From Antennarius striatus (taxonomy: Eukaryota; Chordata; Actinopteri; Lophiiformes; Antennariidae), in the NCBI RefSeq assembly GCF_040054535.1, contig NC_090784.1, forward strand, positions 11,288,501 to 11,352,500: a stretch of 64,000 nt of DNA, written 5' to 3'. Position numbers and translations under genes: made by a program. This document shows positions 1,405 through 47,200 of the stretch, in pieces. The notes under the pieces were generated by a model. It searched no databases and was not told where the DNA came from. It saw only the letters and a program-made list of their open reading frames with translations. Every line of letters begins with the position of its first letter. Within the stretch, counting starts at the first letter, position 1.

Positions 1405-1806
1405 AATCAATGGTGGCTCAGCGGTAGAGCAGATGTCTCGTAGACAGATCACCCCAGCCATCGGTGGATCGAATCCCGCTCCCACCAGGAGTGTGAGCTG
1501 ATGGTGGGAGGTGAGCCGACACCTCCCACCATCAGCTCACACTCCTCAGCAGTGGCTCACCTCCCAGCCACTGCCGAGGTGCCCTTGAGCAAGGTGCCGA
1601 CCCCCATACAAGCTGCTCAATTAGGGCGCTTTCCAGAAGCCGCTGCCCGTCACTCTGCCTCCTAATGTGTGTAGTTTGATGTGTATGTATTAACTGCATG
1701 CTTACAGGCCCCCTTGTGTGCTGTGTTCAGGGGTCCTGTATACTGTTAAAAATACTAACCTGAGTGACCATGTAGTTTCCCCTTGCAGGATCAATAAAGT
1801 ATTCTT
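1405..1806 (+). mobile_element. Second SINE type (tRNA-like head, AATAAAGTATTCTTC tail)
   Basis: A plus-strand A box (TGGCTCAGCGGTAGAGCA) and B-box-like GGATCGAATCCC mark a tRNA-like head at about 1412-1480. The body includes the GTGCCCTTGAGCAAGGTGCC stretch that recurs at 27340-27365. The 3' end reads GGATCAATAAAGTATTCTTC, the tail style shared by several fish LINE/SINE pairs. Inside it, 1489-1544 is a perfect inverted repeat. Target-site duplications were not found. Confidence 0.7.
1489..1544. repeat. Perfect 25-bp inverted repeat (hairpin) inside SINE
   Basis: The left arm 1489-1513 (GAGTGTGAGCTGATGGTGGG...) is matched exactly by the reverse complement at 1520-1544. The loop is six bases, AGCCGA (1514-1519). 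In RNA or single-stranded DNA this would be a very stable stem. It looks like a local inverted duplication of SINE body sequence. Confidence 0.9.
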
Positions 1807-2389
1807 CTTCCAGTCCTCCTTTTGAACTTCTCCAACCACCCACGCGATGCCTTAAATGCCTTAAACTTATTTTTGTTTTAATAACGATTGTAGTTGCATT
1901 TCGGCCATGTTCTTTGGCGAGATCAACCAAACGCATCACTTTTTCATACCTTTCCATTATCTCTTTCTATGTTTGTATGCACAAAAAACTCTTTTCTTCG
2001 TCTTTTCCCGTTTTCTCCGTCACTTCCTTGGGGTCCATAGTGAATTCTCAAAAAGTTATTATATTTGCGCAAAAATATCAGAACACCTCACTGGTCGAGT
2101 GCTGAATGCCAAAGACACTACATAAGCACCTATCTAGCTCCACACAGAGGTGGAGTGGCATCCCTCTTAGCCAATGGGATGCCAGGAAGATAGGTAATAG
2201 GTAGAGCAGCTATGAGAATGTTGCGTTCAGGAACCTGTGGGAGATTCGACTATCAGCCGATACTGTGTTTTTACATTACGTAAATTTCTTTCGTAAGAAG
2301 AGGCAATATTTTCCTGCTGAGAAATTCCGTAAGTAGAAAATTTCGTAAGTAGAGACATTCGTAAGTAGAGGTATCACTGTAATATAGAA
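1807..2389. other. Non-coding spacer between elements
   Basis: Nothing coding is recognised. The stretch at 2270-2385 has short direct repeats of 'TTTCGTAAGTAGA', an imperfect tandem array of about 16-20 bp units. The rest is unassigned. Confidence 0.4.
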
Positions 2390-3045
2390 TCATATACAGC
2401 ACACCTCACCACTGTCTTACAGTCCTCATACTTGTCCTGCACCGCTCTAACATACTTCTCTGCCACTGCAGACTTCCTCACACAATACCACAGTTTCTCT
2501 CTGGGCAACCTGTCATAAGCTTTCTCCAGATCTACAAAAACACAATGCGGCTCCCTCTGGCCTTCTCTGCACTACTCTATCAACATCCTCAAAGCAAGTA
2601 TTGCATCTGTAGTACAGTACTCTTTTTTGGCATGAAACCATACTGCTGCTCACAAGGGCAGAAGTGAGCATTTGAGGAAAAGACAGGAGACAGAGCTGGA
2701 GGTAGCAGAGATGAAGATGCTGGGGTTCTCTTTGAGAGTGACCAGGATGGATAGGATCAGAAATGAGTACATCAGAGGGACATCACGTTAGAGGTTTTGC
2801 AGATAAAGTCAGAGAGGCCAGACTGAGATGGTTTGGACATGTTCAGAGGAGAAATAGAGAATATATTGGTAGAAGGATGCTGAGTTTTGAACTGCCAGGC
2901 AGGAGGCCTAGAGGAAGACCAAAGAGGAGGTTTATGGATGTAGTGAAAGAGGACATGGAGGTAGTTGGTGTGAGAGAAGAGGATGCAGAAGACAAGGTTA
3001 GATGGAGGCAACTGATTCGTTATGGCGACCCCTGAAGGGAAAAGC
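2390..3045. mobile_element. LINE fragment with inverted 5' half (twin-priming structure)
   Basis: From 2390 to about 2635 the minus strand encodes reverse-transcriptase sequence, including the motif VFVDLEKAYDRLPRE, with at least one stop codon. From about 2650 the plus strand encodes the C-terminal end of the same sort of polyprotein: RWFGHVQRR..., then GRPRGRPKRRFMDVVKEDM (2763-3035), ending GDP-stop. A GAAGAAGAAGG tail follows at 3053. The RT portion therefore lies inverted and head-to-head with the 3' portion. This arrangement is typical of twin priming during LINE insertion. It is dead: truncated, with in-frame stops. The clade (RTE/Rex-like) is not certain. Confidence 0.7.
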
Positions 3046-3075
3046 CAAAAGGAGAAGAAGAAGGAGAAGGAGAAG

Positions 3076-4060
3076 ATTTTTTTTTTGGAAGAAACACTTT
3101 AATCACATTCAAACATTTTACAATTTTACATTAGATGAAAGTACTAAAAGTGCTTCAAAAACACTAAAAACCAATAAATAAAATTAAATACAATTTAAAA
3201 ATTAGTGCATTATATCAGGAAGTTTGCAAAAGTGAGTTGATCCTCAACTAAAGTGCATAGGACATTTTTGTGACACCAGATGTTCCTAAAGTTATTTAGG
3301 TCTTTTGTCATTTTATAAAAACCAAATTCTAGTTTTAAGCGACAGCTGATGTTGCAGCAAAAAACAGTAGCTGCTTCTTGAACAGTATTGTTTTCAATTC
3401 TCCTCTTCCTGGTCACGTAAATTGCGAGTTTTGCCTCTCCAGAGATAAAATTTAAAAGCTGCCACTTTCTTTGATTCGATTTATTGTACACAGCACCGTA
3501 GATGAATTTCCTGATACTAAAATCTTCACTGAACAGATTAAAAACATTCGTTAGAAGAGTGAAGAGCACTGCAAGTCTCCCACACTCACTGAAAGCATGA
3601 AAGACTGTCTCACGAAGGGGACAGAAGGGACACTGGCTGGACACAGCAGGGATAAAAGCATTGGAACCGATGGCACCATGTAAAATTCTCCACTGGAGGT
3701 CGGCTGTTTTTTTCTTGAGGAAGAAGAAGAATATAGGATCATATAGAACGTAGAAGATACTGAATAATCCCCAAAAGCTTATTTTCAGCAGATGATTATC
3801 AAATAAAGCAATGCAGTTACAGTCGTCTCTCAAGGAATAACAAGAGCTCCCTTAGGGAGACTTTTGACAGCTGCTGCTGAGGCATCAATTCCTCTGTGTC
3901 TCTATTCTGAGTATTCCCATGCACACTCTTAGCAATGGTCTGAAATATCAGCCAAATTCTTGAAAATGAAGTGGACACTGCTGACATGTTGTCCTTTGAT
4001 TTACGAGCAGAAAGGGGTTTCACTACGGCACTGACCTCATCTCGTCAGAGTTGCCTAGAA
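3076..4060 (-). mobile_element. L1/Tx1-like LINE ORF2 3' end, decayed
   Basis: The minus-strand open frame at 3210-3833 (207 aa) encodes the post-RT region of a fish L1/Tx1-type ORF2. Typical landmarks are LQWRILHGAIGSNAF, a zinc-knuckle-like CPFCPLRE...FHAFSEC, and FRNIWCHKNVLC. The element ends in a poly-A tract, seen as poly-T at 3076-3087 on the plus strand, abutting the preceding LINE's tail. It has apparently inserted into or beside the older element. The upstream frame (3817-4023) is poorly preserved. Family assignment rests on remembered protein patterns. Confidence 0.65.
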
Positions 4061-31081: not shown

Positions 31082-33676
31082 TCATTGAGTCTTCAATTTC
31101 TTGATGTGCATTCCAGACTCTCGCTTCCTAGCTTTGGGAGTGTATCGCCTGGTTGAAATGAACAAAGGCACAACAGTCACTTGGAAGTATACAGCACAGG
31201 AAGTGTTTGTGCTGTCGAAACATCTTATTGCACTGATGTAAGAATCACACTTAACTCTAAAGCAATTGGGCTGTTTCTCGGGTTTACTGTTTTATTAGTT
31301 TTTTCACAGAAGAATACATGAAATTAAAAACTGTAGAAAATTCGCTTTGGTTTAAAGATGTGTATTTTGTGTATGGAGAGTCCTACCTTCGTTGGTAGAG
31401 ATACAGGAAAAAGAGGAGCTCGTCTCTGAAGCAGGAAAGTTGATGAGGAGAAGAAAGGATTTTAGCGGAAAAGAAAAAGGAGGCACAGGAGCAGAAATCT
31501 GTGATCAGCGTGTTCACTCCCTGTTGGGACAGGAGAGAATGGACTCATTAATAAGACACAAGTATTAGTTATTTTTCAAGATGCTTTCTGAAAATACTAA
31601 ACGACTGAATTGAAAATCTAATATAAGAGGGTATATAACATTTCTACATAGTTCCCTCAAAAAGGTTTGAATCTGCTGCACACAGAACTCACAACTCAAC
31701 AAAAAGTGCAAATAAACAAAACAGGCAAATAAACAGGCATATTCAGCATATCCACTGCTAATACAATGCAACAAAAATACATTTATAAGTATCGAACGTC
31801 TATGACATTTTAAAATCTCTGGTGCTTATCAACAAAAATGAGCATGTCCTAGTTTATCCTTTTTGTGACTCCTTATTTGTAATATGACTGCCTCTTGGAT
31901 TGTGCTGTGTCTACAGTACATATGTGCCAATGTGATCAAGTTGAAGAAGGCGGGTGCATGTAGTTAGATGAGCCAGATGTTCACACTCACTCTGTACATC
32001 AAGACTGCCCCTTGCAGGTGGTTCACAGACTGCAGCTGATCCAGATAGAGATAGAGGACAACAGAGAAGTCAGAGAGAGCAGAAGCCAGTTCATACAACG
32101 ATTTACAATGGTTTGTATGATTAGCATTAGTTGCCAGACAGACCTTGTAGTTGATGAAAAGCTGTGGGGCCATAGACAAGAATCCAAAGGCATACACTCC
32201 TGAGAGGAAGAAGAGAGGCGCAGAGTCAATACAGCACAAGTCAATAAAAATATATACTGTAGAATGCAATAAATTACACTGAAAATGATGGATGAAGTTG
32301 TTTCAGTCATAACAACTGATGTAAATCAACTTACCAGTCACCAGAGTGTTCATCAACCAAGAAAAGTAACTGTTAAGAAAATGGAATTTATCTTTAGTAC
32401 AGCAATCGTAAGTGTTTTTAGTCATTTAGAGTACTACAGTAGATGGATGAGTCTGGACTGAAATATTACCAAGTAGAGCAGAGTGTGTGCCATTTATCAT
32501 AAATAAAAAGTACTAACAGAGCACATAACTAATCAGTACCGTTGTAACTAAATGGGAAATGTGACAGTGTCTTAATTTTAATGTCCCAGATCAACACTAA
32601 TATGGAAGCTTGCATGGAACAGTGCTGTTGTCCATATCTTTATTGTGAGTGCCATCATTTTGTGTTTAATTCTACTGGTTAAATGCTGTATGATCCTGAC
32701 TACAAATCCATGACCATGCATTATTTTTCTTTTATGCATTGCCACTTGAGTCAAGACCCAACCTTAAACAAAATTTCATCAAAATCCTTGGAGAGATTTT
32801 ATAGAAATGTTGCAGCAAAACATACAAACATGGGAGAGCATATAAGATGACACGCATTAGAGGTAAAACATGAAATGTCTGTCAGTGATTATCTCACCTC
32901 TTCTGGCGTAAGTAGGCCAGTGAGAAAATAGCTCCACTGATGCACAGAGGATAGACCAAGTAGGACACATATGATGACGCCTGGAGAGAAATCCACACTG
33001 AAAATATCAAGGCAGATAATGATAGCAGAACTGAAACAACAACAGAATAAACAGAAACAAGCTGATACCTCTGTATCATACTCCACTGTCTTTCTTTCTT
33101 CGTCATCCATCTTTACCTATATAGCAATGGTGAAGACAGTCTTAGATGAAATCGCACACATTAAAACCACCATAACATGATGGCTAAACTCTAACACACT
33201 CACATGGAGTTTGGAGTTTTTCAACTGTGGCTGGATATTGAAGACTTTAAAGACCTTCCACACCTGCCGGAATGACAACTTAGTTTTGACTGTAATTTAA
33301 CTCTCAACATAGAAGTGCACCATGTACCTCTACACATGCTCCCAGTCCGACAGGAAGCAGAACTAGCAAACTGGTCTGTTCTAGCAGATGGAGAAAAATC
33401 AGCAGCATGCTGAGACAACGCCACAAAACTAGAAACAGAAGAAGTAGAAGGAAGCATCAGGCCCCAAAGCGAACCATTGTCCACGGGCTGAATCAAAACT
33501 AAAATTTATTGTCATTAATAACCCTAACCCTACAATGCAGTGCACAATTAGTTTAATGTTTAAGCTTGCATACTTGTATTTTCTTACCAGTGTTCCTTGA
33601 CATCCCCCCCATGGTCTTCTTCTTTCTCCATGAGCTGATGTCATTTTTAAGAGCCAGGAATTCACAGATGAGCTGT

Positions 33677-33713
<37 letters not shown>

Positions 33714-35376
33714 GAGATTTATTAAATGATTCATGAAGGACATTCTGTGTGACATTGTAAAATCTTACTTGTAGAGCTGTGATGAGTGCAGTCACTACCA
33801 ACAGGTACAGATTGGAGCCCACCAGTGTTTCTTTTATCTCATCTACATACTCCTCTGTGAAACCTGCGTGAACAAATAAATGGACACAGAATTCAGTTCT
33901 CTTGATTAAGTTACGTGACAACCCAAAAAATCTGTTATTTTATTTTCTCACCAAATTGTTCCAAGGAATAAACCACATCCTGTAAATGTACCCAGAACCT
34001 GAAGCCCCGTAGAGAGATCCCCTCATAGGACACAGTCAGAGGAAGTTCTGCATCTCTGCTGCTGATCTCCTATGATCATATGGATGCATAAATTCCAGGA
34101 CATTGTCAGTTCAGTATTAACACAGCATTTATGAGATGAAGTTTGAGTGTGAAAGCGTCCCACCATGAGGTCTTTCATTCTAAAGCTGAGCTCATCAACC
34201 AGCAGCAGAGGAAGGTACATCAACTGTTGTTCATACTGAGAGCTGCAAAACGAGGAAAAAAGAGAGTTGCATTCAAACATGTACATGAGAGCTCTGGGCC
34301 AAACGCTTATTTACTTGCTGGGGGACTTGAATGAACAAATATTACTTAAATTACATTTGTTTACACAGTGAAAAATGGTTAAGCCTCCATTACAACAGTA
34401 TTTCTACAGAATAGCAAACCTATTGGTAAAGCTGCAGCACATTATACAATTTCAAAATGATAACAAATATTTCACCCATGACCATACAGCACTTGTTTTT
34501 TTGTATTTTATAATAACATTTGTTTATACGTAATAATTTTTAAAAAATCAACATTACTTAATGATAAACTCCCTAAAATATGCAACTTGATGCAGCAGGC
34601 TGCAAACAGGAAATCCTTTATTTGAAGTCTGAGAACCAGTGATCTATAATGTAGAATGTTTGGAATATAATGGATCCTTCACAGACATCTCCGGCGATAA
34701 GTGTGACATGTCAGTAACACACTGAAATCAACTTCAATACAGTAGTCATCACAACCTTCAAAACCAACCACAGCTGTGCATTATACTTAAGAACCCTCGT
34801 TTCATGTTCTGTTATAAATGAATTAGATTTAAAAACAAGAAGAACAGAATGTGAGCATGTGTTTGATAATCTGACAAACATCCCGACGTGTACTGATGGA
34901 AGGTGGCAATAAGGCCGATTTCAGCCACAGACTGTCTAACTAACACTCTCATGTAGCGCCGCACATCACTAGGCAGCGCCGCCTTGTTGAAGGTGAAGTC
35001 CTCTGACATCACAGTGATTGGCAGGCGAGGTTTCCAATGGGATACAGGATTCTCTGATCTTGGCCTCAGCCTCTGAAGGAGCACAAAAATCATATTTGCA
35101 GCAGGACTGTGTTCTCAATATTCACAATATATAGCATGACTACGTCAGACAGTGAGTAACAATTTACCTACAGTATAATAATTTACCTTCATGTCTCTCT
35201 GCTCCACAGTGTGTGTGGGAGTAATGTAGGTGGTGAGCTGAGCTGCGTAGTGGACTTCTCTGCTATCCTCCAGGGGTGAAATGCCAGCTTTGTGAACATA
35301 CACAACTGCATACAAAGAGCCATTAGCTCTAGTCTGCTGTGGTAGTGAGACATTGACCTGCCTACAATGAGAGAGA

Positions 35377-35464
<88 letters not shown>

Positions 35465-36518
35465 TAGTCAAATGAGAAAAGGCAGTGAGACAGCAAGTTA
35501 ATACAACCTGCCTCAGACATACATTTTTTCCTCTGAATAATGCTTACCAATATGATTGCGCTACTGCATTTTCAAAACCTCTGTATCTCCAGTGTCAGTG
35601 ATAGCAGTCCTTTAACAGTAATGAGTAGGAAGTCTTATCTGACCAGTAGATGTGCCAACATGTTATTAAACCCACCTGTTAAATCTAGAGAGTGGATCAA
35701 ATGGGTCTATTTTTACAACGAGGTTGAGTTGGCTGTTGTCTGGCACAAGGCAGGTGAAGACACTCAGCTAGATGACACAAAGAAGAAGAGATTGAAATCT
35801 TTTGACTTTTAGAAAAAGCTCTGTGTACATACTGAGATGCAACTGTAAATGGCAAAGAAAAAAATTATTAGAAAACATATATAGCCTACTCCATGTTGAA
35901 TGATTATCTCACTATTTTAGGTGAAGCTGAGGTTACTGCTCCAGGAGTATAAATGTGTACAGAGTGCAATCCTCTAATTTAATCACAAAAAATCAATTTA
36001 CAGAAGAAAAAAAAAGTCCAACAAAGCATATTTATCCAAAAAAACTGTGCAAAGTGACCCAGAGAGAGGACTAGAGAGAGGACTGTAATTCGAAAACCCC
36101 CAGAAGACAGGAAATCACAAATGAATAAACAAATGAAAAAGAAAGCTCAAGACAAGACAAAACCACTCTACTGCAAAGTCAGATAAGAAATAAACAAACA
36201 CAAAAACCCAGGATCATGACAAAATCACACATAAGCTCCAGAAATGCTACGTTTTACCTATGTAAAATTTAACTTTCACATACTCAGCAAGCTCCAATAT
36301 TATTCAATGCTTTGTGTCAATAATATAATTTAGATAATAAAACACATACAACGCAGTGTCATTGTTGTAGTTAACACACTTTTGCACATACTGACTGGTT
36401 GACTCCAGTCAGTAAATGATTGTTTCTTTAAAAGGTTAGTTCCTCTGTAGTATTTTATAATTACTGTAAAATGCAACACAATACAAATGTATAAGTCGAA
36501 TTGCATTTGTTATTATTA

Positions 36519-36582
<64 letters not shown>

Positions 36583-37168
36583 GGTATTGTTGTTGTCATA
36601 CATATGCAAGGTATGACTTTCATGCAATAAAAATATACTGAGGTTTTCATGGTACATGCTGAAAACTTCATTTTTATTGGGATGAATATCTCTACAGTGT
36701 ATATGTTTACCCATCCAGTTGTTGTCATTTAGACAGCAATACTGTTGGCCGTACGACGGAGAAGGCCAAGCACACATAACGCATATGCAACACAACAAAA
36801 CACATTTCAAACATGCAGCAGGTATTCGAGAGAAAGAAAAAAACAACAGCCGTCAGGCTCTTGTTTGTGTTTACATCATGGTGGCCGTGGAGCGAAAAGC
36901 GCGTCTAAACCTGATTTATTGTATCTGCCTAGATTATCTAGGACAATGAGAGACTGGGTCTGCCAACCTGCAGTCTTGGTCTTGCTGCGAGGTAGGAGGC
37001 GATGCAGAGCTCTCCTGTGTCCCCATCACAGGCTCTGGTGTTGAGGAAGCCGTAGATCAGCCAGACGGTGTGGAGCATGTAAACCACAAACACCCCCAGC
37101 AGCAGTTTCGCGATAGAGCATCGTTTAGCGCCACTGCTGCCCGGTTTGGTGTAACAAGACGGTAACAT
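31082..37168 (-). CDS. clptm1l: CLPTM1-like protein (cleft lip and palate transmembrane protein 1-like)
   Basis: CLPTM1L is a multi-pass endoplasmic reticulum protein of the CLPTM1 family, reported to scramble glucosaminyl-phosphatidylinositol during GPI-anchor synthesis. Seventeen exons, 5' to 3' on the minus strand: 37168-36968, 35767-35676, 35361-35187, 35072-34945, 34242-34164, 34069-33952, 33863-33769, 33672-33588, 33428-33328, 33263-33204, 33116-33069, 32980-32898, 32369-32335, 32199-32144, 32035-31991, 31520-31387 and 31148-31082. All phases agree and predict 533 aa (human 538). The N-terminal signal-anchor is AKLLLGVFVVYMLHTVW. Luminal signatures are NPVSHWKPRLPITV and ELPLTVSYEGISLRGFRFWV. 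Membrane segments follow near residues 280-300, 325-360, 400-420 and 433-452. The C-terminus is basic (KARKRE...IKKLKTQ). The start was chosen to match the family's short N-terminal tail. The stretch after residue 452 is unusually diverged. It is head-to-head with mrs2. Confidence 0.92.
33679..33709. repeat. (CA)n in clptm1l intron
   Basis: Short dinucleotide tract a few bases upstream (in gene sense) of the exon 33672-33588 acceptor, replacing the usual polypyrimidine tract by (TG)n on the coding strand. Confidence 0.9.
35368..35462. repeat. (GA)n microsatellite in clptm1l intron
   Basis: Nearly pure GA tract immediately upstream, in gene sense, of the exon 35361-35187 acceptor. On the coding strand it is a long (TC)n that acts as the polypyrimidine tract. 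Confidence 0.95.
35768..36967. other. clptm1l first intron
   Basis: No exon seen. It contains the (TTA)n tract at 36509-36582. Confidence 0.7.
36509..36582. repeat. (TTA)n trinucleotide repeat
   Basis: About 24 TTA units. The poly-Ile frame across it is an artefact. Confidence 0.97.
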
Positions 37169-38249
37169 GACACTAATGAAAAGAAAATACCAGTAATGTA
37201 AGAACAATGGTCGCGATCTGGTGTAATCCGAAAAGGTTTACAACCGGATCTGCGTCCGCGCAATGAAAGCCGTCTTCTGTATCTACACAATCCATCCGTC
37301 TGCGTCCATCTGAGGAGCAGGTGCGTAAAAACGTGTGCAGCTGTACCGGGGCAAGGGGCGCTGAGGCGCATTATCTGAAAATGTATACATGATGCATGAA
37401 ATGTCAGTAAAATGTAGTGGATCCGTATTTCTTCATTAAAACGAGGAGAGTAGCTTTCTAGTGCTAAAAACGAAGCACTTCCAAAATACCTTAAAGTCAT
37501 ATTTCAATACCTACCAAAAATAATGTAAACTATTATTGGGCAAATATATATAATTCATGGATTCAAGTTTGATATATCACCGCTTTGAAGCGGGATTTAA
37601 TTAATTTGAATCCTGCTCCTAAGCTTCTACAGTTAATATCTTTATTTTTTTGCTTATTTATAATTTTTTTGCATAGAATTTTTTCTGTTCTTGATTTACG
37701 TCGGTAAGTGATCTTCTCAACTAGAGACGATCTTGGTAGTTGAAGCGGTGCATTATGGTCCGAAACAGTCTTGTGTTTGAGTTCTTTCCACTATGCTAAC
37801 CTGCGCAAAAACAATCTATTATTATCTTAAACATGAGCTGAACTAGTGTTGTGCTTTAGTCTGTAACTGTCGGCGGGTAACTGGGTGAAGCTTATCGTAT
37901 TCTCCTTTACTGTCATTAAGTATTTCAAATGATAATGACGAGGGCGCACATGCTAGTTTACTAACACAACTCCGCAGCTCTCTGACAGCTGAAGGGAGTT
38001 AGCAGACGGGCTCGGCAGCGTTAACCAGTATTCCATCTGCATTTGACCCGTGGTTGTGGACAGTCAAACTAGTATTTTCGCGAACAGACACGTGGCTCCT
38101 AACGACATGGCTCCAAAGACTGAAGGGTTACAAACACTTTGCTTCTTCCCATTGCTAACTCTGTCCTCTTGAGACCACTGTTTGTTCTTGGCTGTTGTGT
38201 TCTGGTTGGAAGACCTCGCTGGGGCGCTGATCTCCACGTCGGTCTCATC
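37169..38249. promoter_or_regulatory. Shared 5' region between clptm1l and mrs2
   Basis: The two genes diverge from this 1.08-kb interval between start codons. CpG is locally richer at 37200-37370 and 37910-38110 than in the surrounding AT-rich DNA. This fits two promoters or one bidirectional region. No TATA box was recognised. An upstream open frame for mrs2 lies at 38107-38172. Confidence 0.45.
38107..38172 (+). other. Upstream open reading frame in mrs2 leader
   Basis: ATG at 38107 in the context CGACATGG (G at +4) opens a 21-codon frame ending TGA at 38170-38172, 77 bp before the mrs2 ATG. If it lies within the transcript it would lower mrs2 initiation. Transcription start is not known. 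Confidence 0.45.
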
Positions 38250-41200
38250 ATGGCAGGTTATGTGAAGACTCTGTCTCGTAATGGCCTGGAGGTCAAGCTA
38301 CGCCGGGTGCTGCTGACCGGATGTATTAACTGTGCCGGGATGTGTCTCCCATTCAATGGAAGCTTTTTTCCAAAGCGTCGTTGCAGTTCTATTTTCTCCT
38401 CAAGACTTGGTGCGATCGGAACCTTCATGCTTTGCGGTATTCGTACAGCAGTCTGTCCGCTGAGGTCTGCTGCTACATCTGGAACTATTAAACCCAGATT
38501 GAACGCCTACAGTGAGGTGGTATCAAGAACGCCAGTGACGTCTGGATGTCAACACAGAAGATCTCAGTCTGCGACGTGGAGAAATGAGAAGCTGCTAAAA
38601 CAAGTTGCACCGGGCCCCGGTAAGTGTCACTCCGTGACTTCACAATGCATGTTTACATCTTCTGTCCTGTAATAATAAAACATTGTTTTGTAGGTCTCCA
38701 TCATTAATATTGTTAGCTGTCTATTACTGATCACTGGGGGAGTTATTGTCGATCATCTTAAACCGCTTATTATGACATTATGGCATGGATCCAATTTCGC
38801 ATGACGGATTTGCACAAGCCACCATGGGAATACCTTGTGTAGCTACTTAACTTTAAGTATTAACTCTTTTCAGGAGCTTGAGACATGTTATTGAGAGCGC
38901 ATACCCAAACACACATACCCACACATTGGTGGATGTGTGTGTTTGGTGATTTTTGTTTCAGAAATACGTCATGCAAATGTAAAAATAAGTCTTGGTTTTT
39001 ATCAGTATATCAAATATGGCATCAACTTTACATTATCAAATTTTAATCGATGTTTGGTATTCTGACATGCTATTACAGTATCCTCTTCCTCTCCTCCATA
39101 ATGCTTATCGGATATCTGGTTGGATAATTTAAATATTCCCCTTTACGTGTGGTTTAAAATCTTTTTTTCTTTTTAGTGTCCTTCGTCCGCCACAGAGTGA
39201 CCGATGCCTGCGTTTCAAGTGTGTCTCCATTTTTTGTAGTGGTAAGGCACAGAACTTTTCACCACTTTACATTACTGCCAGTCTCTGGATTGAACATCTA
39301 TATTACAATGCAATAATGTAACTATGGTGCCTGCTGCACTTTGCGAGTAGCACCCAAAATTTATGGAGTTCAAACTATATTTCAAGAGGTGTCAGTTTGC
39401 CTCCACGGTGTCCTTGAGATGGCAACGTCCCCACCAAGTTGCTCATTGGGAACAACAAAGATGTAGCTGTCTGCCACTCTTCCATCGTCCTCTCTGTATT
39501 TGCATGCCTACAGGTCCCTTCTGTGTGTGTGTGTGTAAATGTACATAAAATATCGTCAAAATTTTATTCAATATTTGATTCATTCAATCATGCAAGGAGG
39601 ATATAACCTTTTATGTATCTCTTTTTTTTTTTTTTACAATACCACACAAAGACCATATGTTCATATATTTCCTAATTGTTAAACACAAAAACAAGAAGAA
39701 TATTTAAAGCAATTGAGTTTATTATTAATTTGTTTTATTTAGAACATTTTTTCAACAAAAGTGTAGGTTGAAGATGTATGTTTGTTCAATGTCAGTAATC
39801 AAACTCCTGATTATTCCACAGATGAAATTTGACAAAGAGGGAAATGTGACAACATTTGGTAAGTGTTGGAAAATAAATTGGCTTTGATTCATTTACATTG
39901 AAGAGAGAATCAGGGGTTGTTTTTTTTTGAAGACTTATGTTTATTGTCCTGGTGGGATACTTTTTTCTTAACAGAGAAGAAGAAAACAGAACTGTGCCAG
40001 GAGCTTAGTCTTCAGGCACGAGACCTTCGCTTTCAGCACGCTACCAGCCTCACTGCCAGAAACAGCTGCATTATCATACGAATGGAGGTATGCTCCTTTC
40101 TCTTATTAGCACTCTGTGATTGATGGGACAATTTCCTGCACCAAATAAACTCACGTTAAGCTCATCTTTGATGTGGGTGATGATTAGGAGATCTTGTGGC
40201 TCTGAGTCTTACCTAAATTTCTCCTGACAATGCCACATTCATGACAAATCAGAAATTATATAAAATTAGGAACACTTCAGAAATGTGTCATCATATTGTG
40301 CTCCAGTATCTCTAGTTGTATTTGTTCAGATTATTTTAAGAAATACGTAAATTAAATCTGTAAGTTTAATGCATAAGCTAACATTTAAAGTAAAACCAGA
40401 GAAAATTTTACATCCGAGGACAATCTCTATCCCGTAGTACAATCAACTGTCCTCCCGAGGGCGTTCTGGAGTAGGTGTAGTGGAAGATGCAAGAGTCCTC
40501 ACGGCTTCTCATCGAACATAGTGGTTCGGTGATCTCTTGTTTGAGCTCCACCATCCTTACAGTGAGGTAGCCACACTCTTCGTCACACCTGAGGAAGACT
40601 GAACATGTTCAAACCAGGAAATGTCCGTGCACTTGAAAAAAATCCCAACAAATATTTTTATTTTGTAATTAATTCATATCTGAGGAAAAATTATTTAATA
40701 ACTATAAAATAAAATTGTTATAAAGAGACCAATTAACTCCTTTTCCAGGCAGTTGTTTTGAAAAATATTATGACTAAATGGCAACAAGAAAATGCTTTTT
40801 TAAATATCTTGTGAATTGTCCTATGATTTAACCAATCATTTAGTTTAGTTTTAGTTGATCCCAAAAATTTTGAGTACCTATTTACTTTTTATCATTCTGC
40901 ACACTTTTTTAAAATTATAAGTCAATTGTTCAGTCATCAAAAGAAGATACGTGTTATTTTTGTGCCCATGAATAAACCTAAAAGCACGTCTTACTTAAAC
41001 GTCTTTACACTGATATGTTTCTACAACTTAATTTCTCGTATTGCCGTTATTCTATATATAATAACCTGATTGTAGGACGAGAAAGCGGTTCTCACCTGTT
41101 CTTCTTCCTTCCTGTCCCAAATGCCCGACATTCCACACAATCTCTGTGCTGCTGGCATACACCTATACAAGTTGGGCAGTCCTCACAGGTCGCCCCCATA

Positions 41201-44200
41201 TATGGAGGAGTGCACATACATGTTCCACACTGACAAGACCCTCGACCATTACACAGCATCTGGTTGTAAGCCATACAGGTAGCAGTTTCCATGGAGCAGC
41301 TGCAGTCTTCACCCATCCAATCATCGTCACAGACACAGTTTCCACACTGGCACTTGCCATGGCCCCCGCAGATTCTGTTTGACCAGATGTTAAGTTTTAA
41401 GTATAAGTGTGCTTCTTAAATAAAGGTGAGGTCTTGAGCAGAAGCTGTTTACTATTCATCGCATACCTGTTCTGAAAGCGAGGACAGTCAAAGTTGCTGC
41501 ACTGGCAGAATTGTCCACTATATTTTTCTTCCGGTTTTTCTCTGTTGTCACACTCACAGAAGCCCTCCACACACTTCCCCCTACCACTGCATAAAGGGGC
41601 ATTTGGGCCAGAACGGCAGGCTCTTTCATCTAGAGAAAAATATGCATCTGTCTGGCATTGTTGCCCAACATAAGGACTGTAGCACTCACAGCGGCCACAC
41701 ACCAGAGCCCCGTGGCCACTGCAGCCAAGACTGTATTCCTCACGGTCTCTTGTGCAGCCACACTGACCTAAGGAAATACATTTTATTAGTTGCTTGATAA
41801 ATATTCCATTCTCAGTCTTCAGATGACTCATTTTCATCCCATCCTCCAATCAACCTACATATGTAAACACATGTCCAATTTCTTTCAGTGTCAGATTTCA
41901 TTTATAACAGCTTATCCTATGTAAGGGTCTGGGAGGGCTGGAGTTTATCTCTATAAAGAGTCTTTATGAAGAAGAATTACAAGCTACAGATAATTTAGAG
42001 TAATCGATTCACATTTAGTGCATCTTTTGTGGTGGAAGGAAACAACAACCCAGAGGGTTCAGAAATGTACAGAACATTTCTCAGGTTCTCAGATGGATTT
42101 TAACGGATAACCTTCTTTTTGTAAGGCAACAGTGCTGCCCACTACTTCAGCATAAAGTCCACTGACAAAATTAAGCCAAAATTTTCTAGACAGCAATACT
42201 ACCATCTTTGTCACCATCAACTACCCACCCATGCAACTGCCTTTTTCTTAAGGCATAATATACAAAATCTAAAAAAAAATGTAAGACTTGAGTGAAGGTC
42301 TGTGTGATTACCATGACCTCAACCCATTTTGTCAAAATGTGTTTGGCTTTTGTTTTTTCGAGCAGTCGAGTTGTCCATCTTCATGCAGTATTATGCTGAT
42401 TGTCTCATGCCCTTATAACTGGCTGTCAATGGGTTCCGAAGTTACTCACACTCCAAAGTTATGTTTAACTTCACACTCATTGGAAATTGCCTGGGTGTGA
42501 TGTAGAAACTCCATGGCCCAGTCCTGTTCTGCATCTCTTTGACACTCCCACTGGCACAGTGGACATTTCCAACATTTACCTGCACAGAGCAGAGTTTATA
42601 ACTGAAATAAATACTCTTTAAAATTCTGGACAAGTCCTGTGCACCTTCATGCTGCTGACCTGTACAACCATTGGGTTCCTATTGTCGATGGTTGTAAGTG
42701 TAATGTTGACTCCAGCTGGCAGAGGGCTGATATCCATTTTAAGCTCTGTGACTGGCTGGTCTGTAGGCATGGTGATCGTGAGAGGGAAGGACTGGCTGGC
42801 CCCTGGCCTCAAACGTAGAGAGAGCTCCTGGGGTTGGAGGAATGGGGCCTCGGCACTCATCGGCTCAGTGCTGCAGAAGTTCAGATCAACATCTCAGACA
42901 TCATTGTGGTCTTGAACCAATAATGACTGGTATTCAGTCTAAGCATCTTTAAAGTAGGAGACTTACCTGCTCTCATTCTTAAGGACCTCCACTCCACTCT
43001 GAGGGTTATACATGTACTGTTTGGGACAGCCTGCCCTCTGCAGTCCCTTTAAGGTATTACAGCGGATGCTAAAAGAAGGAGACGCACACCAAACACACTT
43101 GGGGCTGGACTGGATGCACTCATCACAGTTGGAAGCGGATTTGGGACATGTTTGTTTTTTGGTGCAGCTATGACTTATCAGAACCAGCAGCAGGAAGAGA
43201 CACAGCAGCTTCAGATCCATTCTGCATTCAGAATAACGCTTTGGGTTGATGTTCTTATTAATCAAGCCCTTGTGGGAAAACGCTGTATGTGACAAAGCAA
43301 TAATGAGTCAGCCTTAGCACATAATTACATCTCGCTTCAAAGTAGTGATGTATTGTAATTGTCAGTGTTGGTGTGTTTGTTCGTCCGTCCGTTAGTCCAC
43401 CAAATATCTTCACAACAGTTGCAGATAGAAAGATGACACAAAAAGCACATTACGCAGGCGGCAAAGGGGATGAAAATGAGATGATGTGAGGAAGGCCATA
43501 GATCAAAGCTAGTACTTTGATCAATGACAGTAGGTCAGAGCACTAGCTTTGATCATTTACCTATTCAGTGCATTATGAAAGCAGGAATGACATTTCAGGT
43601 GATATTATGGATTTGTATTGTTTATTTAGGGATTATCTTATACCTAACACTGAGTATATTGTCGAACTAAACACTATCTCTGTCTTGGCAGAAGAAACCA
43701 TAAGCCATAGAAACAGTACTTCTGTTTAAAATATAAATGAACTACTATGACTTTCAAAGTCAACTAGTAATATTCTAATATACCTGTTAACAGCATTCTG
43801 TAATGTTGATCTTATTATGCTACATAAAACATACACATCAGTTTCAGTACCTGAGGTATTGAAGGCTCTGTTCTGCAGTTGCGTCTCAGGTACAGTCTGC
43901 CTCCACTTCAGTCATATATTGGCTGGGTGTGAATGCAGCTTGAGAACTGGGATGCTTGACTCTGATCATCGCAGCAGTGTCATGTTTGGCTCTGGAGAGC
44001 AAACACAACGGTGAACTTTAGCACGCTTTGTTTCACAACAATGCTTGTTCATTGGCTACGTCTGTTGCAGCAAATATTGACGGATCAGAGTCAACTGTAT
44101 GGACCATGGTTGTCATATGTAGTTTACGTGCACAGAAAGTTTTGTGATGTTTGTATGAGTTTCAGTATTGGCAAGCATTTTCCAGGGGATTTGTGTTTTC

Positions 44201-47200
44201 TAACATCCCCCTTCTGGTTTTTCACAGTCTTTGAAATCCATTGTGACCCCAGAATCCCTGTTGGTGTTAGATTTTCGTGGAATGGGATTGGAGCGTTGGC
44301 TGGTCCTGGAGTTGGCTCCTCAGCTAGCCTCACAGACACACACTTTGCCCTTTGAGTTCAGAGCACTAGAGGCCATACTGCAGAACAAGGTAAAACAGAT
44401 TAGAAGAACACTATGTCAGTATATTTAGGTATCTGAACTAGATAAAGCATGTGTCTATTCTCAGATAAGTGTGCCTATGACTATGAAGGTATGGGTCATG
44501 TCTCTGTGTCAATAGGTAAATAACCTTCAAGCTCGCCTCAGTGATGTCAACTCAATAATACTGGACACATTGGAATCCCTTGTTGATCCTAAAATCCTGT
44601 CTGCAGATAGAAGTAAGCTACATATGCTGCTGCAGAGCAGCAAAAGGTAAAGCACCCAATTACATGCATGGGCATAGTTTTCAAAGATAGTTACAAATGA
44701 GATTTGTGCACACTTTGGTCTAAATCTCTGGGACTGGACTGACTCACAATAGTCCCTCACCTCTCATGTTTCCAATCAAAAAGCATCAACAGTCACACAT
44801 CTCTGGTCTAAACTTGTTCTGCCTAACCAGTCACACTGCATAATCACAAATTTAGTTTTTTTCTGCCTCTTTTGTCTCCGACAGCTTATCAGAGTTGGAC
44901 ACAGACGTAAAAGTTTTTAAGGATTCCTTGCTGAAGATTTTGGATGAGGATGAGATCATTGAAGAGTTTTGTTTGACCAAGTGGACGGACCCAAGAGTTT
45001 TGTATGTCATATTAGTGCTCACTTACACTCAAAGGAACTTCAAAAACAGTTTTTCTTAAGAGCGATTTTGTAGCTAAAAGTCCTGAAGATGTTTCATTTC
45101 TTACTTAAACATTTTTGGATAACCATGACCTGGATAAATGAGTACCTACACAGACACGGCTGATCAGAAGATGCCAAACCTGTCTTTGGCATGAGTTGGC
45201 CTTGTGAGCAGATTTATTTCTCAACACAAAACTCCATGGTGAACAATCCTTCAGAACAATTTCAAACTTATTTAGTTCCATTTTTATTAATGTTAATTTT
45301 GATTCTGCTCTAAATCATACAAATTCACGACTACTTGTGAACACATGCTTTCAAGTTATTGAGAGTGTCTTCTCTCTTCAAGAAAAGGAAATTGAATATA
45401 TGATTGAAAAAAAGTCATATGATTGTTATTCTTAAATAACCGTTGTTATATGTTTGTCTAAGTGAGGAGAGTAGTTTGGGTATTGACCACGCTGAAGAGA
45501 TGGAGCTGTTGTTGGAGAATTACTATATGCAGGTAAGCCCATATATATTTTTAAGTAAGTAATTTCTAAGTGTTTTTACATGAATGTCACACCAGCTTTA
45601 TCTTTGAGGTAACTCTTATACTTCACTCTTACATTGTTTTCTAGTGGTACAGGATCTGTCCAATTTATAATAGTTTTGTTTAATATTAAAAATACCACCT
45701 GATTTCAATGCTACTACCCTCAGGCTGAGGAGTTGGGGAACAGGACCAGAGAGCTGAAAGGACTAATAGATGACTCTGAGAATGTTATTTTTATCAACCT
45801 GGACAGGTACGCACATACAGTATATACATTATATAATTTGTATAGAGAGACCTAGTCAGTTCATTTTAAAGCTGAAACTTCTGTCTTTTGTAGTGAAAGA
45901 AATCTTCCAGAATTTTTTCACAACCATCATGTTTTACTTGTTTTCCTGCCATTCACTGGATTTAGTTTGAAACTGTTTTATTTACATTTTTTTAAACTCT
46001 ATGGAAATATTTTTTGATGTTTTGATGGTAATATGATGGTTGACAACTGATTAAAAAAAGAGAAATGAGTACAAGAAGAAAAGCGAGAAGCAAACTTGTG
46101 CACCTATACTTTAAGTTGACACTTAATCACATACTCACACTTGAAACCGAATCTGTTTCTCCGTGTCTTTTTTTTTTTTTTACTACAGCCATCGTAACGT
46201 GATGATGAGGCTGGATCTGCAGCTGACGATGGGCTCCTTCTCCCTGAACCTGTTTGGTCTGATTGGAGTTGCTTTTGGAATGAACTTAATGTCGACATTT
46301 GAAGAGGTGAGACAGCTTTCTGATGAGGAAATGCGTCACAAAAAGTTTTTACATAGTATAAAGTATGGTGTTATTATATCCCGGAAAGCGGTGATGTATT
46401 TGTCAGTGTTTGTGTGTCCGTCCATCCGTCCACCAAATATCTTCACAACCGTTGCAGATAGAAGAGATGAAAGAAAAAGCACATTACTCAGGCAGCAAAG
46501 GGTATGAAAATGAGATGATGATCTTGACCTTGAGAAAACTAGGTCAAAGTCGAATTTCAACTATTGTACATATTTTGCACATATCTCAGGAACCAGATAA
46601 GATAGAAAGACGAAACAAAAGGCATTATATTCAGGGAGGTGAGGGGATGAAAATTGGATCACAACCTTGACCTTGAAAAACAAGTTCAAGGTCAAATTTT
46701 CACTTTTACACCTTTTCAGGGACACATCTCTGAAACTTGATGAGATATAATCACAAAACAAAAATGAAACATTTTCAGGAAGCCAGAGGCACAAAAATGT
46801 GTAGGTCAGGGTAAAATTTGGATGTGTCACGGGATGTTGTTGTCTCTGACTGCCTTGTTTTTGTTTGTGTTTAGGACTGTTAGTCTGATCATCAGGATGA
46901 GCATCCTGTGGACCTTCAAAACTTTGGAAATTTCACTGAAAACACTTTGTGCCTTTTTGTATGTTTATCCTCCTGTATATTTATGTTTTGTCTTTGTGTT
47001 TATCACCAGGAGCCTTGTATGTTCTGGCTAGTTACAGGATTCATGTTTTTGGGCAGTGGGCTTATCTGGAGGCGGCTGCTCTCATTCTTGGGACGACACC
47101 TAGCACCTGCGGCACCCCCACTGGTAATATAAAAGACTTCCTACAGGGGGGCCTCAAGTGAAACACAAGTGTTTTCTCTCTGGGTGGGGCTGTACAAAGT

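Follow-up and report, generated by a model that had tools for sequence, protein, structure and literature searches.

A headless integrin beta-1 paralogue nested within mrs2 of Antennarius striatus and its possible role as a soluble integrin modulator

The window analysed here is a stretch of 64,000 nucleotides from the frogfish Antennarius striatus (NC_090784.1, positions 11,288,501 to 11,352,500), a percomorph according to a taxonomy look-up. On its minus strand, between 43220 and 40408, lies a gene for an integrin beta-1-like protein without beta-I domain and without membrane anchor. Its six exons join to one open frame of 451 codons (a coding sequence of 1356 nucleotides with no internal stop). 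The five introns of 96, 80, 682, 92, and 507 nucleotides (1457 in total) all have GT-AG borders and matching phases; because they are present, retroposition was rejected as the origin of the gene. Exon 1 (42967..43220) comprises the start codon, a signal-like N-terminus, and the PSI domain (residues 24–66). The hybrid domain is encoded by exon 2 (42660..42870), which contains the V125/T126 junction where beta-I is missing, and, for its C-terminal portion, by exon 3 (42450..42579). Exon 4 (41467..41767) contributes I-EGF1 and I-EGF2, devoid of both knee cysteines. Exon 5 (41096..41374) adds I-EGF3, I-EGF4, and the beginning of the beta-tail, whose remainder is located on exon 6 (40408..40588) together with the stop codon and without a membrane helix. 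A candidate poly(A) signal, assigned by its match to the consensus, is the ATTAAA at 40365..40370 of the same strand, 38 nucleotides past the stop. In all of its 451 amino acids, the translation agrees (100% identity) with the NCBI/UniRef entry "integrin beta-1-like [Antennarius striatus]" (P0001 in our searches), and under this name the gene has already been annotated automatically.

The gene is nested antisense within intron 4 (40088..44227) of mrs2, a magnesium-channel gene on the plus strand. The exons before this intron (38250–38619, 39177–39241, 39822–39858, and 39975–40087) and after it (exon 5, 44228–44389; exon 6, 44516–44646) form one open frame, by which the host intron is delimited, and the joined exons match the Pfam family MRS2-like with an E-value of 5e-28. 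The coordinates, exon number, phases, and nested position given in a preliminary description of this DNA were thereby reproduced.

The deduced protein displays a signal-like start followed by PSI, hybrid, I-EGF1–4, and beta-tail. Pfam identified PSI_integrin (PF17205, residues 24–66, E 1e-9) and, likewise above the cut-offs, I-EGF_1, EGF_integrin, and Integrin_B_tail (residues 371–450); the beta-I domain (PF00362) was not found by Pfam in the 451 residues. The PDB match is integrin beta-1, where residues 20–127 and 178–449 correspond to positions 22–145 and 441–724 of the chain; the E-value of 2.4e-71 excludes a chance resemblance. By hydropathy, the first 19 residues resemble a signal peptide, and a hydrophobic window starting beyond residue 50 is present in none of the 62 headless relatives introduced below, which points to the lack of a membrane helix. 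Such a window follows residue 500 in 36 of 46 full-length chains, and the ten chains without it probably stem from faulty gene models. Three sequons are conserved in 25, 27, and 26 of 33 family members. RGD-based ligand mimicry was rejected, as an RGD motif is rare among the relatives (6/62) and missing from the frogfish protein.

A layout of this kind could be an annotation artefact if beta-I or membrane exons had been overlooked, and some fish records do look broken, among them the ten full-length chains lacking a C-terminal hydrophobic window. However, the V125/T126 junction lies within exon 2. Moreover, when the whole window was searched by means of tblastn with seven full-length integrin queries, PSI/hybrid, EGF, and tail exons were recovered and no beta-I exon was matched; all hits in the beta-I range had E-values of at least 0.94. 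One of them, of 24 residues, is located at 36669–36740 on the plus strand, outside the mrs2 intron, and was obtained with five of the seven queries (E 0.94 to 7.1). Sixty-two relatives share this layout. Missed beta-I exons were therefore rejected, the artefact explanation is largely refuted for beta-I, and as a whole we consider it extremely improbable. Pfam, the tblastn search of the window, and hydropathy agree on a protein with PSI, hybrid, EGF, and beta-tail modules and without beta-I or anchor, as had been proposed beforehand. In the full-length frogfish paralogue P0213, the aligned positions 143 and 380 are separated by 236 residues; beta-I has been excised at its hybrid-domain borders. 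The hybrid domain of the frogfish protein still folds in the AlphaFold model, where it is well predicted.

A first protein search yielded 114 matches. According to the precomputed Pfam column, 62 of these (P0001–P0061 and P0077) are close relatives without PF00362; five more matches lacking PF00362 (P0075, P0110, P0111, P0112, and P0114) fall outside this group. A profile search started from 33 members gave no new headless relative among the best 120 of 158 matches. We take all named headless relatives to be Acanthomorpha (the placement of Antennarius and Polymixia was looked up); no family member was seen outside Acanthomorpha in these searches, which is not a demonstration of absence there. 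For the main alignment, 33 of the 62 relatives were picked by length, and Pfam detected PF00362 in none of them. The frogfish protein shares 46–68% identity with the other 32 aligned members, 57 columns are invariant, and open frames range from Polymixia to percomorphs.

The alignment contained 32 full-length and 33 headless rows. Full-length beta-1 has 56 conserved ectodomain cysteines, of which the headless proteins keep 48 and lose eight: four in beta-I, two in the C-C loop of the hybrid domain, and two at the knee between I-EGF1 and I-EGF2. Numbering according to beta-3 was deduced via the human beta-3 chain in the PDB alignment, with a signal peptide of 26 residues; the lost knee pair corresponds to C473 and C503. 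According to a review, these two residues form the disulfide across the EGF1/EGF2 hinge (the numbering being inconsistent in places there), C374–C386 is the hybrid pair, and C177–C184 and C232–C273 are the beta-I pairs of beta-3 (PMC12383024). Since the lost cysteines map to the listed pairs, every loss is that of a whole disulfide, four in all. In a larger alignment, a cysteine at either knee position occurs in 0 of 62 headless proteins (eight are gapped at the first position), whereas both are present in 154 of 155 full-length chains. The chance that two random losses among 50 leg cysteines are partners is, by arithmetic, 1 in 49. That cysteines were lost only as whole disulfides points to selection on a product that folds. 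The knee loss abolishes a disulfide at the bending site of integrins. Human beta-8 is reported to lack a landmark disulfide in I-EGF1, and the authors tie this to its distinct conformational regulation (PMC10187181). From the absence of the knee disulfide in 62 of 62 proteins, it would seem that the bond is needed solely where there is a head to switch.

In phylogenetic trees, the 33 near-full-length headless members form one clade (support 100/100), which groups with beta-1 and not with beta-3, -5, -6, or -7. When the latter served as outgroups, the tree, whose bootstrap had not converged, showed the family as the sister group of all the remaining beta-1 rows, with a stem length of 0.76 changes per site. 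This depth is distrusted because the branch is long and the taxon range makes it unlikely; it is plausible to assume long-branch pull. After removal of the outgroups and reduction to 13 of the 33 members, the family was located inside euteleost itgb1a with modest support (89/80), and an itgb1b-like origin was not rejected by the approximately unbiased (AU) test (p 0.13). Taken together, alignment and trees indicate a fast-evolving integrin beta-1 paralogue that is conserved among Acanthomorpha and lacks beta-I, the membrane helix, and the cytoplasmic tail. That the frogfish gene is such a headless and anchorless beta-1 paralogue is, in our judgement, nearly certain.

Whether the gene is also functional has to be weighed against several observations. 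Pfam recognition is incomplete: at an E-value of 0.01, I-EGF_1 was found in 33 of 33 members, the beta-tail in 26, and the PSI domain in 20. Evolution is fast, with within-family identities at non-cysteine positions of 0.43 in the tail and 0.47–0.57 elsewhere, compared to 0.76–0.91, depending on the domain, among five itgb1a-type rows. Most of the beta-tail is missing in 15 of the 51 rows surveyed (drawn from the 62 relatives), and databases of proteins are biased to open frames. Thirteen of the 15 tail-less rows stop 2–9 residues past the last "TC" of I-EGF4; examples are P0022 from Xiphias, P0036 from Gasterosteus, and P0050 from Oryzias latipes. On a quick tree of the 51 rows, tail loss required ten changes, at least five of which were forced by starred branches. 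The beta-tail thus appears to be dispensable, although some tail-less records may be annotation faults. The tail-less P0040, on the other hand, comes from a contig that has just 54 bases to spare.

These properties would also fit a decaying beta-1 duplicate that is becoming a pseudogene and has no function, its open frames reflecting the selection of annotated proteins: stem and tips are long, the tail was lost several times, and some records are short or odd. Decay is, however, difficult to reconcile with frames that stay open across species as far apart as Polymixia and the percomorphs, at the identities given above, with 57 invariant columns, with conserved sequons, and with cysteines lost solely as whole disulfides. 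Nor does the frogfish gene contain any frame break or lost splice site. We therefore regard decay as quite unlikely. The preliminary description had likewise argued for an intact gene, and the 62 relatives without beta-I, the lack of PF00362 in all 33 aligned members, the whole-disulfide losses, and the well-predicted hybrid domain speak in its favour.

Further hints come from contigs labelled "lgn", which are 1500–3171 nucleotides long; five carry a full-length and one a tail-less open reading frame. The bases left beyond the reading frame amount to 315 (P0008), 159 (P0037), 360 (P0039), and 54 (P0040), whereas the 535 and 1815 spare bases of P0013 and P0046 provide no proof on splicing. As the leftovers of P0037 and P0040 are far below the intron total of the frogfish gene, at least these two contigs resemble spliced transcripts or retrocopies. 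It is likely, as judged from these lengths, that the family is transcribed and spliced in other fishes. Against this, the contigs could also represent retrocopies, and there is no explanation for the label "lgn" of their source; in P0111 and P0112 the sequence seems to read on beyond an exon, so the source is not RNA only.

The known systems most similar to the frogfish protein are ITGB1 itself, the truncated beta-1 paralogs of zebrafish, and ITGBL1. ITGB1 (itgb1a/itgb1b in teleosts) has PSI, hybrid, I-EGF1–4, and beta-tail in the same order, and shares 48 of its 56 conserved ectodomain cysteines. In contrast to ITGB1, the frogfish protein is devoid of beta-I, the hybrid C-C loop, the knee disulfide, the membrane helix, and the cytoplasmic tail, and is 451 instead of about 800 residues long. 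ITGBL1 (TIED) carries ten EGF repeats, as its name states, and is not known to have PSI, hybrid, or beta-tail. It resembles the frogfish protein in its integrin-type EGF modules and in having no anchor; the latter differs in possessing PSI, hybrid, and beta-tail and in being a beta-1 paralogue. An orthologue of ITGBL1 was rejected for this difference in layout. ITGBL1 has been described as a secreted inhibitor of integrin activity, for which the authors could not find how trailing-edge integrins are selected (PMC8921176). In zebrafish, the truncated paralogs beta1tr-1 to -3 were described in 2006, with a proposed secretion and regulatory role; their A (beta-I) domain is preserved, the chains stop four residues past EGF-4, and the genes are located close to beta1-2 and beta1-3 (Mould et al., PMC1538996). 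Both beta1tr and the frogfish gene are divergent teleost beta-1 paralogues without membrane and cytoplasmic parts, but the frogfish gene has lost beta-I, retains the beta-tail, and sits in mrs2; 13 of the 51 surveyed relatives, all tail-less, end near the beta1tr end point. The closest structural precedent is therefore beta1tr and the closest functional precedent ITGBL1. A head-free beta chain was not found in the literature searched (open papers, subscription journals being mostly outside coverage). The earlier statement that this layout is without precedent among described vertebrate proteins thus stands for the open literature and needs two additions, namely the automatic annotation as integrin beta-1-like and the preceding soluble zebrafish paralogs, in which beta-I is kept (PMC1538996). 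The leg-only layout of this probably soluble integrin beta-1 derivative is matched by neither beta1tr nor ITGBL1.

How might such a protein act? Because beta-I is missing, an alpha/beta head cannot be formed and the site for ligands is gone, and because the anchor is missing, the protein cannot signal. The anchorless chain would be secreted as a disulfide-rich glycoprotein built of the beta leg. Its PSI-hybrid-I-EGF modules might engage integrin legs or partners that bind to them, and the protein would then be a soluble modulator of cell-surface integrins, probably an inhibitor, with an action like that of ITGBL1; a soluble mimic of the leg had been suggested, likewise tentatively, in the preliminary description. 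This analogy is limited, given that the layouts differ and the molecular mechanism of ITGBL1 is itself not known, and we propose the mechanism tentatively, at somewhat less than an even chance. A different possibility is an intracellular dominant negative that is not secreted, binds alpha chains in the endoplasmic reticulum via leg contacts, and lowers surface integrin. I-EGF2–4 are indeed the most ITGB1-like part (non-cysteine identity to the five itgb1a-type rows of 0.42–0.47, compared to 0.24–0.31 elsewhere), and competition for alpha chains has been proposed for zebrafish beta1-3 by Mould et al. (PMC1538996). However, the protein has no beta-I, the domain by which a beta chain contacts alpha in the head, the N-terminus is signal-like, and no retention motif was noticed; we consider a dominant negative unlikely. 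The protein could also be a secreted thiol-exchange factor, with the PSI CXXC pairs as its working part. Two CXXC motifs are formed by cysteines 32, 35, and 45, present in 33 of 33 members, and cysteine 42, present in 32, and the review mentions thiol isomerase activity of integrin PSI domains in protein-chemical assays (PMC12383024). The same review notes that these cysteines have other partners in the crystal structure and that the PSI domain lacks a thioredoxin fold (PMC12383024), and every integrin PSI domain has these cysteines. A thiol-exchange role is accordingly very unlikely. To the joint interpretation, a functional headless beta-1 paralogue that is at the same time a secreted leg-only integrin modulator, we would give even chances. 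The natural deletion is the one a structural biologist would design, a beta-1 leg minus its head. If the protein binds integrins, the leg alone would be a handle for control and the protein a natural soluble reagent. The gene is present in many laboratory and farmed fishes as "integrin beta-1-like", and expression studies may mix it up with true beta-1.

Headless beta-1 chains are not confined to this family. A search started from the Sardina match, with the best 120 of 528 matches, listed two from Sardina, one each from Alosa sapidissima, A. alosa, and A. pseudoharengus, and one from Lepidogalaxias. The clupeid copies are P0075 and P0143 (Sardina pilchardus) and P0144, P0146, and P0192 (Alosa). 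Four of them were included in a tree and joined a full-length Alosa gene at 100/99, away from the acanthomorph family; a single group of clupeid and acanthomorph headless chains was rejected by the AU test (p 0.028), which assumes that groups are named beforehand. The clupeid copies thus probably arose independently. The headless copy of Alosa sapidissima and its full-length relative come from source sequences of equal size (32206363), so both are probably on one chromosome. The predicted fold of the Alosa copy has a mean predicted local distance difference test score (pLDDT) of 64.8, with visible hybrid strands and values below 50 for the junction residues 140–146. P0219 from Lepidogalaxias salamandroides is a headless, anchorless itgb1a-like chain, for which the AU test did not reject an origin shared with the acanthomorph headless chains (p 0.104). 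As in the frogfish gene, beta-I is gone between the same hybrid strands in the clupeid and Lepidogalaxias copies and a membrane helix is lacking; unlike it, they are much nearer to full-length itgb1 and keep the hybrid C-C loop. The other headless copies in the alignment also keep the knee cysteines, except for one position in A. alosa. It is conceivable, though rather speculative, that teleosts repeatedly made soluble head-free beta-1 legs: in Acanthomorpha (nested in mrs2 in the frogfish), separately in shads and sardine, where the copy is next to its parent gene, and perhaps in Lepidogalaxias, alongside beta1tr of zebrafish. They might represent an extracellular layer of integrin control that acts on legs and leaves the ligand site alone; the oldest group would also have lost the knee switch.

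As a separate observation, P0214 from Pseudoliparis swirei (isoform X2) is annotated as an itgb1 isoform in which the greater part of beta-I is skipped and a membrane helix is lacking; it is possibly a model artefact or a splice form of like kind. Elsewhere in the window, upstream of mrs2 and on the opposite strand, a stretch at 34900–35090 (minus strand) matches the CLPTM1 family (PF05602, E 8.6e-6), presumably as a CLPTM1L-like gene, and the gene probably spans about 33600–37180. A long AG repeat is located on the plus strand at about 35370–35462.

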